Shown here: in pieces, positions 13,520 to 52,164 of the stretch
Position numbering within the stretch: the first letter of the stretch is position 1
Layout: every line of letters starts with the position of its first letter
Source of the DNA: Halobiforma lacisalsi AJ5
GTDB taxonomy: Archaea; Halobacteriota; Halobacteria; Halobacteriales; Natrialbaceae
Direction: 5' to 3'
DNA length: 64,000 bases
Assembly: GCF_000226975.2 (NCBI RefSeq)
Contig: NZ_CP019285.1
Location: 1,798,001 to 1,862,000 of the forward strand
The notes under the pieces: generated by a model
Told to the model about the DNA's origin: nothing
The model's database searches: none
The model's input: the letters and a program-made list of their open reading frames with translations, nothing else
Program-made: the position numbers and the translations under genes

Positions 13520-14085
13520 GGCCGCGCGGCCGTCCTCGCGTTCGGGCTGGCGATCGGACTCGTGGTCGGACTCGGCGTCGGGGCGGCCCTGCTCGGTGAG
13601 GTCGACGTCCCGGCGCTGTCGACGTTCGTGGTCGCGACGCTGGCGTTCGCCGCGATCTACGCGAGTATCGTGGTCGGCATCTCGGGGACGACGGGGTCGA
13701 CGTCCCGGGCGACGACGTACGCGCTCGGCTTCTTCGTGATCTTCGAACTGCTGTGGGACGCCATCCCGATGGCGATCCTCTACGTCATCGAGGGGTTCTC
13801 GATCCCGGAGACGATTCCCGACTGGGTCTTCCCGCTCATGCAGGTGTCGCCGTCGTCGGCGTACTTCACGACGGTCGTCGCCCTGTTGCCGGATCTGGCC
13901 GACGCCGCGAACGCGGATCCCGGGGGTGCCGGCGTCGGCGTCGAGGCGGACCCCGCGGCGGCCGAACCGCTCTACGCGTCGCCCGAAATCGGGATCGTCG
14001 TCCTGGCGCTCTGGCTGGTCGTCCCGTTTCTCGTCGGCTACTACCGCTTCGGCAACGCCGATCTCTGAGTCACGTCAGGTCGGCG

Positions 14086-14952
14086 TCACGCGTACTTCGA
14101 CCACGTCTCCCGCATCGGCACCCACTCGTCCTCGGGATCGACGTGACCGGCCAGTACGGCGTTGAGAACGGCCCCTAGCAGGAGACAGAGTCCGCCCAGG
14201 TAGACCCAGGTCAGGATCAGCAGGATGGCCCCGGCGATACCGAACAGGGCCACGGTCTCGGAGGCTGTGACGTAGAGTCGAAACCCGAGCGCGAGCGCGG
14301 TCCACGAGCCCGCGGCGAAGACCGTCCCCGGCAACACCTCGCCGATCGAGACGTCCGGCACGGGAAAGAGGTAGTACATCGGGAGGAAAAGCGCAACGAG
14401 CAGTCCGAACAGGGTAACGCTGGTGAGGGCCGTCGCCGCGAACCCGCCGACGATCACGGAGACGCTTACGCCGAGGACGCCCACGAGCGTGACCCCGACG
14501 GCGACCGTCGCCGCGAGGAGGACGGCGTTCAGCGCCGTTACGAGCGTCACCCTCGCCGCGTTGTCCACGTAGGACGCCTTTTTCCGCGAGCCGTAGACGT
14601 CGGTGAAGGCGCTGTTGACCGCCTGGAACAGCCGCGCGGCGCTCCAGACCAGGACCACGAACGCGAGCAGCCCCGCCCGTAACCGGGCGACGTCGGCTCC
14701 CGCCACCTCGCCGACCTCGCCGTCGGTCACCGCACCCTCGAGCCCCGTCGCCCTCTCGAGCAGGTCGACCAGCGGCTCGAGGGCGTCGACGAGGCTGACC
14801 CCGACGAGTACCAGGATGACAAGCGGGACGAGGGTGTTGAACGCGTGGTAGGCGAGGCCGGCGGATTTGACGCTGATCCCCCGCTCGCGGGCGACGGCGG
14901 TGACGTCACGCAGGAGGGTCCGGAGACGCGGGCTCGAGTCCGGCGCGGACAT
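14086..14952 (-). CDS. YihY/BrkB-family membrane protein
   Basis: About 288 residues from M8 of the longer frame (MSAPDSSPRLRTLL). The N-terminal amphipathic segment SVKSAGLAYHAFNTLVPLVIL is the family hallmark (helix with SxxAAYxxFxSLxPL pattern). About six hydrophobic segments follow, the last being GAILLILTWVYLGGLCLLLGAVLNAVL, also typical. Members were once called ribonuclease BN, but that activity belongs to another protein; the true function is unknown. Convergent with the split permease. Confidence 0.87.
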   Translation of the reverse strand: MSAPDSSPRLRTLLRDVTAVARERGISVKSAGLAYHAFNTLVPLVILVLVGVSLVDALEPLVDLLERATGLEGAVTDGEVGEVAGADVARLRAGLLAFVVLVWSAARLFQAVNSAFTDVYGSRKKASYVDNAARVTLVTALNAVLLAATVAVGVTLVGVLGVSVSVIVGGFAATALTSVTLFGLLVALFLPMYYLFPVPDVSIGEVLPGTVFAAGSWTALALGFRLYVTASETVALFGIAGAILLILTWVYLGGLCLLLGAVLNAVLAGHVDPEDEWVPMRETWSKYA

Positions 14953-50320: not shown

Positions 50321-50490
50321 TTGGCCAGTAGCTTTACCACCGGATGGTTCCAACCAACAACCGGCAGGGAGATTGGGGGTTCAGTCAGCGCGACCGATCC
50401 GTCCGACACGTGACGTGACCACCCCTGCCCACACCCGTCACACGCCCACCACGGGTTCCTCGTCACCCTGTGACGACGTTCGAGATCGTT
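50321..50490 (+). repeat. intergenic element, copy A: TATA-like box plus conserved downstream region (candidate small RNA)
   Basis: Begins TTGGCCAGTAGCTTTACCAC (TATA-like) and continues through GGCAGGGAGATTGGGGGT (50363-50380), CCGTCCG and ACGTGAC to CCCTGCC. Copy B at 50601-50760 repeats these words in the same order at similar spacing. A 6-bp hairpin CGTCAC/GTGACG lies at 50461-50475. No open frame is conserved between the copies. Transcription start would fall near 50360, with the hairpin at 50497-50518 as its end. Confidence 0.45.
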
Positions 50491-50496
50491 CAACCG

Positions 50497-50518
50497 GCCG
50501 CCGGATTCGGCCGGCGGC
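50497..50518 (+). terminator. GC-rich hairpin followed by a pyrimidine tail
   Basis: GCCGCCGG-ATTCGG-CCGGCGGC, an 8-bp perfect stem with a six-base loop, then TTTCCTTCC. It sits about 130-140 bases past the predicted start of element A and fits an intrinsic terminator. Confidence 0.55.
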
Positions 50519-50600
50519 TTTCCTTCCGAACACGCGACGGTACTCGAGCGTACGGTTCAGCCGCGATTCACCGTCGACAGTCGTCGCGAACGGCCTCAGA

Positions 50601-50760
50601 TGGCCAATAAACTTACTACAACGGCAGAGCAATTGCCGAACAGGCAGGGATTGGGGGTATCACTCGTTTCGCGATTGATGCCGTCCGCTACGTGACTCCC
50701 TGCCATCACGTGCCCGTCCACCACCACACTTCCCGATCACCCACTCCATTACGGGCACCC
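50601..50760 (+). repeat. intergenic element, copy B (candidate small RNA)
   Basis: TGGCCAATAAACTTACTACA (TATA-like, 50601-50620), then GGCAGGGATTGGGGGT (50643-50658), CCGTCCG, ACGTGAC, CCCTGCC and CACCAC in the same order as copy A. Copy B lacks the strong terminator hairpin of copy A. The spacing from the TATA-like box to GGCAGGGA is about 35-40 bases in both, which would put transcription start close to that motif. Coding potential is poor on both strands. Confidence 0.45.
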
Positions 50761-50912
50761 CTTTCCTGAGTCGACTCGAGCAACGGCGAATACCGGGTCC
50801 TCGAGCGTGTACGAGCGACTCGAGATCACCGACAGCGGAGAGCACTCCTCGACGAAACACTCGACGCGGGTGAACTCGAGGCTATCGCGAACGTCGAGGA
50901 ATGAGATCGTGG

Positions 50913-52090: not shown

Positions 52091-52164
52091 AGCCGGTGGA
52101 GGGATTTGAACCCTCGACCTAATCCTTACGAAGGATTCGCTCTGCCAGTCTGAGCTACACCGGC
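52091..52164 (-). tRNA. tRNA-Thr (anticodon CGU)
   Basis: 74-base cloverleaf without encoded CCA. The acceptor stem is GCCGGTG/CACCGGC with discriminator U, the D-stem GCTC/GAGC, and the anticodon stem AATCC/GGATT around the loop TTCGTAA, which gives CGU, reading ACG (Thr). A five-base variable loop is followed by T-stem GAGGG/CCCTC with loop TTCAAAT. All stems pair fully. No intron. The discriminator U fits archaeal tRNA-Thr. Confidence 0.96.

Follow-up and report, generated by a model that had tools for sequence, protein, structure and literature searches.

The window, a stretch of 64,000 nucleotides from the genome of Halobiforma lacisalsi AJ5, holds two diverged intergenic segments on its plus strand, here called copies A and B, in which the same short words recur at similar spacing. 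The initial annotation read them as a duplicated small-RNA gene or as two minigenes, and the locus therefore raises two questions: is the duplication genuine and, if it is, what does it encode?

Every word that had been claimed for the pair was found, the order being the same in the two copies: TGGCCA (A 50322, B 50601), the TATA-like CTTTAC of A (50332) and CTTAC of B (50612), GGCAGGGA (50363, 50643), TTGGGGGT (50373, 50651), CCGTCCG (50399, 50681), ACGTGAC (50408 and 50413 in A, 50690 in B) and CCCTGCC (50423, 50698). Local alignment of 50321-50490 with 50601-50760 gave a score of 49, compared with a mean of 17.3 (standard deviation 2.6) and a maximum of 33 for 2000 dinucleotide shuffles. 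The duplication is therefore real, its score lying above that of every shuffle. As had also been proposed, the copies have no reading frame in common, the indels that separate them not being multiples of three, and copy A ends in a hairpin followed by a pyrimidine tail. The ends assigned to the two copies were, however, too short: A reaches about 50527 and B about 50766. Two of the shared words, GGCAGGGA and CCCTGCC, are the strands of a single outer helix, P1.

Sequence comparison indicates that the pair belongs to an undescribed, multi-copy family of structured RNAs. A DNA search of 61 relatives located copies in every one of the five genomes belonging to the genus, among them a further copy in the H. 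lacisalsi genome itself. Nine sequences from the genus were used to build a covariance model, R1, which was restricted to the inner stem and contained no P1 pairs; its matches included multi-copy relatives in a second genus with flanks of identical layout. The outer helix was added in models R2 and R3, the latter having 69 positions; the artificial 16-nt flanks given to alignment A5 to hold its ends flush are absent from R3. At E ≤ 0.1, the E-values of all three models being rough, R3 matched 54 of 125 Natrialbaceae genomes (about 40%) in nine of 29 genera, with up to 13 copies per genome, and homologues of the pair thus exist elsewhere. In an order-wide sample of 392 genomes R3 was positive in 37, all of them Natrialbaceae, and gave no match in the other families of the order.

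The H. lacisalsi genome carries at least five copies (A, B, C1:2085589, C1:987030 and C2:57000). Clustering is recurrent, being seen in the window, in Halobiforma haloterrestris (G001), in genome G003 (at least three copies), at loci L145/L146 and in the virus HJTV-4. Two identical copies in H. nitratireducens JCM 10879 (G004; L065, about 13690-14240) flank a Nextera-type sequencing adapter, and because the adapter separates them this duplication may be an assembly artefact. A diverged copy of a fourth type, on a secondary replicon of H. lacisalsi (L178, G000:C2, 3001-3057), keeps the promoter, outer helix and 3' stem and has lost the conserved CCGTCCGA-GAGACA strand.

Several sets of matches were set aside. 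Weak R1 matches in another family (G155, G186) resemble coding DNA and were not recovered with R3, the matches of a pattern scan of IMG/VR have flanks unlike those of the RNA family, and bacterial pattern-scan matches in genome contigs were taken as chance, judged by their number and hosts only. BLASTN with the window pair against plasmids and phages gave no match, relatives there being reached only with Natrinema queries or with the model. Rfam 15 at the gathering score reported only tRNA in the window and nothing for the pair, and permissive Rfam scans gave only matches at chance level. A tRNA-Thr (CGT) at 52091-52164 on the minus strand lies near the pair and shows no sign of involvement. 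A partial search of the literature, at the level of titles and abstracts, yielded no earlier description of the family.

The 5' domain of the RNA consists of P1 and an inner stem-loop, P2, both of which covary strongly; its consensus is GGCGnGGnnnnnGGnUUCnGUCGUUGnCCGACnGnAUCcgucCGAnncGAGACAuncnnnnCCUCGCC. In 28 structurally aligned sequences 89.8% of the cells pair, double changes occur in 13 of the 18 pairs and the covariation score is 0.372, versus 0.223 for shuffled and at most 0.146 for slid controls. With 95 distinct copies, double changes are seen in every one of the 18 pairs and the score becomes 0.350 versus 0.207, in an alignment that was fitted to the structure and is hence biased towards it. 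Independent support for P1 comes from the fact that R1 had no P1 pairing, yet its matches pair there: in the second genus the outer helix is built from other sequence, GACGAGGG/CCCTCGTC as against GGCAGGG/CCCTGCC. Almost no variation is seen in the P2 loop GUCGUUGCC or in the GAGACA strand, and the domain includes a conserved CGANNYGAGACA strand. A third helix (CCGU/ACGG), attractive in some copies, was rejected; it overlaps P2 and was not prominent in an all-pairs covariation scan.

Copy A has a BRE/TATA-like promoter, GGCCAGTAGCTTTACC, at 50323-50338, placed as in the consensus of 95 copies (-39 to -25 from the outer helix). Its 5' domain (50363-50429) matches R3 with 53.2 bits and is supported by the pair counts on 28 and 95 sequences; P1 is formed by 50363-50369 with 50423-50429 and P2 by about 50378-50400. 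In the 3' part (50433-50476) single-sequence folding points weakly to small hairpins at about 50433-50456 and 50460-50476 that flank C-rich sequence. The terminator-like hairpin and pyrimidine tail, recognized from sequence and fold, occupy 50494-50527, with a predicted stem at 50496-50519. From promoter distance and terminator a transcript of about 167 nt is predicted (50361-50527), and paralogue similarity usually begins at about -2. The fold of the whole copy is no more stable than that of shuffled sequence (z = -0.25), so that the support for copy A is wholly comparative.

In copy B the promoter GGCCAATAAACTTACT (50602-50617) sits where that of the 95 copies does with respect to the helix. 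The 5' domain (50643-50704; R3 match 59.7 bits, together with fold and pair counts) is made up of P1, 50643-50650 with 50697-50704, and P2 at about 50656-50682. A second terminator-like hairpin, not mentioned in the initial annotation, was found here: GTGCCCGT pairs with ACGGGCAC (50710-50717 with 50751-50758) and is followed by CCCTTTCC, the whole spanning 50710-50766 with a fold z of -3.9. It encloses a 33-nt C-rich loop (50718-50750) and probably combines terminator and target-pairing loop. In relatives within the genus this stem is rebuilt from other sequence (GGCCCCACG, GCCTCCA or CGTCCCACT on the 5' side) with pairing kept. Folded as a whole, B is more stable than shuffled sequence (z = -3.26), and promoter distance and the terminator-like hairpin predict a transcript of about 126 nt (50641-50766).

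Upstream of the RNA, at a constant spacing, is an archaeal promoter (GCCAACARGTTTA), although its sequence was part of none of the search models. The base composition upstream of the 95 copies gives GCCAACARGTTTAT between -39 and -25, counted from the outer helix, and is A-rich at -11/-10. The TATA centre falls about 28 nt before the predicted RNA, in agreement with the start close to GGCAGGGA that had been predicted for both copies. Scored with a promoter matrix derived from the strong half of the R3 matches, 40 of the 48 weak matches exceed the 99th percentile of control positions, and some of the eight exceptions have the motif slightly displaced. Strong and weak copies alike thus possess their own promoter at a fixed distance, as small-RNA genes should. 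Similarity among paralogues has a median start 2 nt before the helix and a median end 123 nt after it, limits that typically lie close to the predicted start and terminator. Of the 95 copies 54 are followed by a stem ending in a T-rich tail, compared with 14% of random places; terminator-like elements can be recognized in many copies, both of those in the window among them, though not in all. Homologues, covarying structure, a fixed-distance promoter and start and stop signals at the limits of the conserved unit lend good support, at the level of sequence, to the idea that these are small-RNA genes.

The family also occurs on Natrialbaceae plasmids and in at least one virus. Of 51 copies in nine genomes with good assemblies, 25 are carried by secondary replicons, which account for 8.8 of 45.3 Mb; the density is four times that of the chromosomes (p = 2e-6), in a test for which genome totals were rounded, the genomes were hand-picked and the copies are not independent. 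Haloarchaeal virus HJTV-4 (L181, OP374082.1), a virus of Natrinema thermotolerans, has tandem copies at 2357-2424 and 2666-2730, about 306 nt apart in unannotated DNA. Next to the viral pair lie genes for a RelE/ParE-type toxin and a DUF4065 protein.

Could the copies nevertheless be minigenes, that is, genes for small proteins? Open frames are present in some of them, though such frames are frequent by chance in GC-rich DNA, and we attach almost no credence to this reading since in 40 of the 95 copies every frame is interrupted within the predicted transcript, the 5' domain ranges from 57 to 76 nt regardless of multiples of three and no gene with support from codon usage extends into any of the copies. 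Public annotation places no feature beneath the plasmid and phage matches, and the copies appear, by these measures, to be intergenic and largely non-coding. A cis-acting leader of neighbouring genes, whether riboswitch or attenuator, is suggested by one copy (L060/L062) that shares its strand with a downstream PLP-enzyme-like gene and is separated from it by a terminator-like hairpin. For the family at large this explanation is very improbable: the copy and the next gene share a strand in 46 cases and lie on opposite strands in 42, at very variable distance, and neighbour-gene clustering revealed no recurrent gene family beside most copies, hence no constant same-strand downstream gene that a riboswitch or attenuator would serve.

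The copies might instead be a non-functional, MITE-like dispersed repeat that moves among replicons. Their number per genome, their enrichment on secondary replicons and their non-syntenic sites within the genus fit such a repeat; the trm5-like gene downstream of the pair in the window is present in four of four relatives, where the RNA copies lie elsewhere except in the closest relative (G001). Against this stand the compensatory changes in two helices, a promoter at fixed distance even in diverged copies and unit limits that coincide with the predicted start and terminator. These features argue for selection on a transcribed RNA, and we consider a mere repeat highly unlikely. Local antisense action was rejected as well, complementarity to the starts of neighbouring genes having a mean rank of 0.50, exactly average, which is consistent with action in trans.

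What, then, might the RNAs do? Comparison of the copies establishes, as far as sequence can, the family, its structure, promoter and unit boundaries and its intergenic, largely non-coding nature; most likely the RNAs are regulators that act in trans, their 5' scaffold being conserved and their C-rich 3' part variable. We think it likely that A and B are tandem, free-standing small-RNA genes that combine a protein-bound scaffold with trans pairing of the C-rich 3' part. In this proposal each gene would have its own archaeal promoter, a conserved 5' domain, a variable 3' part and, in many copies, a terminator. The 5' domain would be a common scaffold, probably bound by protein, and the exposed C-rich 3' part would pair with G-rich, Shine-Dalgarno-like sites in mRNAs transcribed from other loci, so that each paralogue would control its own targets in trans. 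CCACC is present in 52 of 70 representatives versus 21 when shuffled, and GATCACC, which we take to resemble the anti-Shine-Dalgarno end of 16S rRNA, occurs in several copies including B with weak enrichment (eight of 70 versus 1.9). These C-rich words make occlusion of G-rich initiation regions the foremost candidate mechanism. Searching the genome with the sequence complementary to the copy B loop was uninformative and identified no trans target.

A serious rival, although we judge it unlikely, is that the RNA owes its activity chiefly to the structured 5' domain, serving as decoy for an RNP or as one of its components, rather than to pairing, with the plasmid and virus copies serving the mobile elements. 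The most conserved unpaired residues, GUCGUUGCC and GAGACA, do sit in the 5' domain, and both the fourfold density on secondary replicons and the pair in HJTV-4 would accord with such a role. However, the 3' part is also conserved among paralogues, up to the terminator, and is C-rich, and the clustering of neighbouring genes found no gene for a partner protein beside the copies. Under the preferred scheme, scaffold plus trans pairing, plasmids and viruses would carry copies because a shared scaffold gives access to host machinery. We suggest only tentatively that mobile elements use copies of the scaffold RNA to redirect or disable host processes by way of the host small-RNA machinery.

Some known systems resemble the family in part. 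Haloferax volcanii sRNA132 (PMC6560208) and s479 (PMC8155600), intergenic regulatory sRNAs and proposed regulators of other genes, are likewise small intergenic haloarchaeal RNA genes. The present family differs from them in its covarying 5' scaffold, its many paralogues, its plasmid and virus copies and its restriction, among the genomes searched, to Natrialbaceae. Archaeal H/ACA guide RNAs have a similar hairpin, built of an outer helix, an unpaired internal stretch and an upper stem, but direct reading found no ANA box at a fixed position after the outer helix and there is no Rfam match, so assignment to that class was rejected. RNAs associated with TnpB of IS200/IS605 elements (PMC12558985) are structured and spread over haloarchaeal genomes, as are ours. 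A TnpB association was nonetheless dismissed: most copies lack a tnpB-type neighbour, the one recurrent transposase-type cluster lies within a few kb of only eight loci, and the RNAs have their own promoter and, in many cases, a terminator. CreA of CreTA modules, in archaea including haloarchaea, is again a small RNA with its own promoter (PMC8501985), whereas our family has no recurrent cas neighbour and its copies show no CRISPR-like repeats.

Function is known for only a few archaeal small RNAs, and following most of them from one species to another is difficult. Haloarchaeal sRNAs as such are already known; we have found no precedent among them for a covarying, multi-copy family on chromosomes, plasmids and a virus, and the pair points to a layer of RNA biology common to hosts and mobile elements. 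The family offers probes, a covariance model that works and tandem pairs suited to genetics. It can now be tested which protein recognizes the scaffold and whether viruses of archaea use small RNAs against or through their hosts.

Some loci share further features. A convergent gene for a small protein (about 70-100 amino acids) follows the RNA by about 120-300 nt at L055, L122, L129, L133 and L141, probably through common ancestry of the locus. At the Natrinema loci L042, L053, L054 and L056 a gene for a small, acidic, cysteine-containing, zinc-finger-like protein lies about 90 nt upstream. A Natrinema subset (L040, L042, L049, L052, L053, L056 and others) has an operator-like palindrome, GGTAACANNNTTGTTACC, just 5' of the promoter and about 75-90 nt upstream of the outer helix, which suggests control by one DNA-binding protein.
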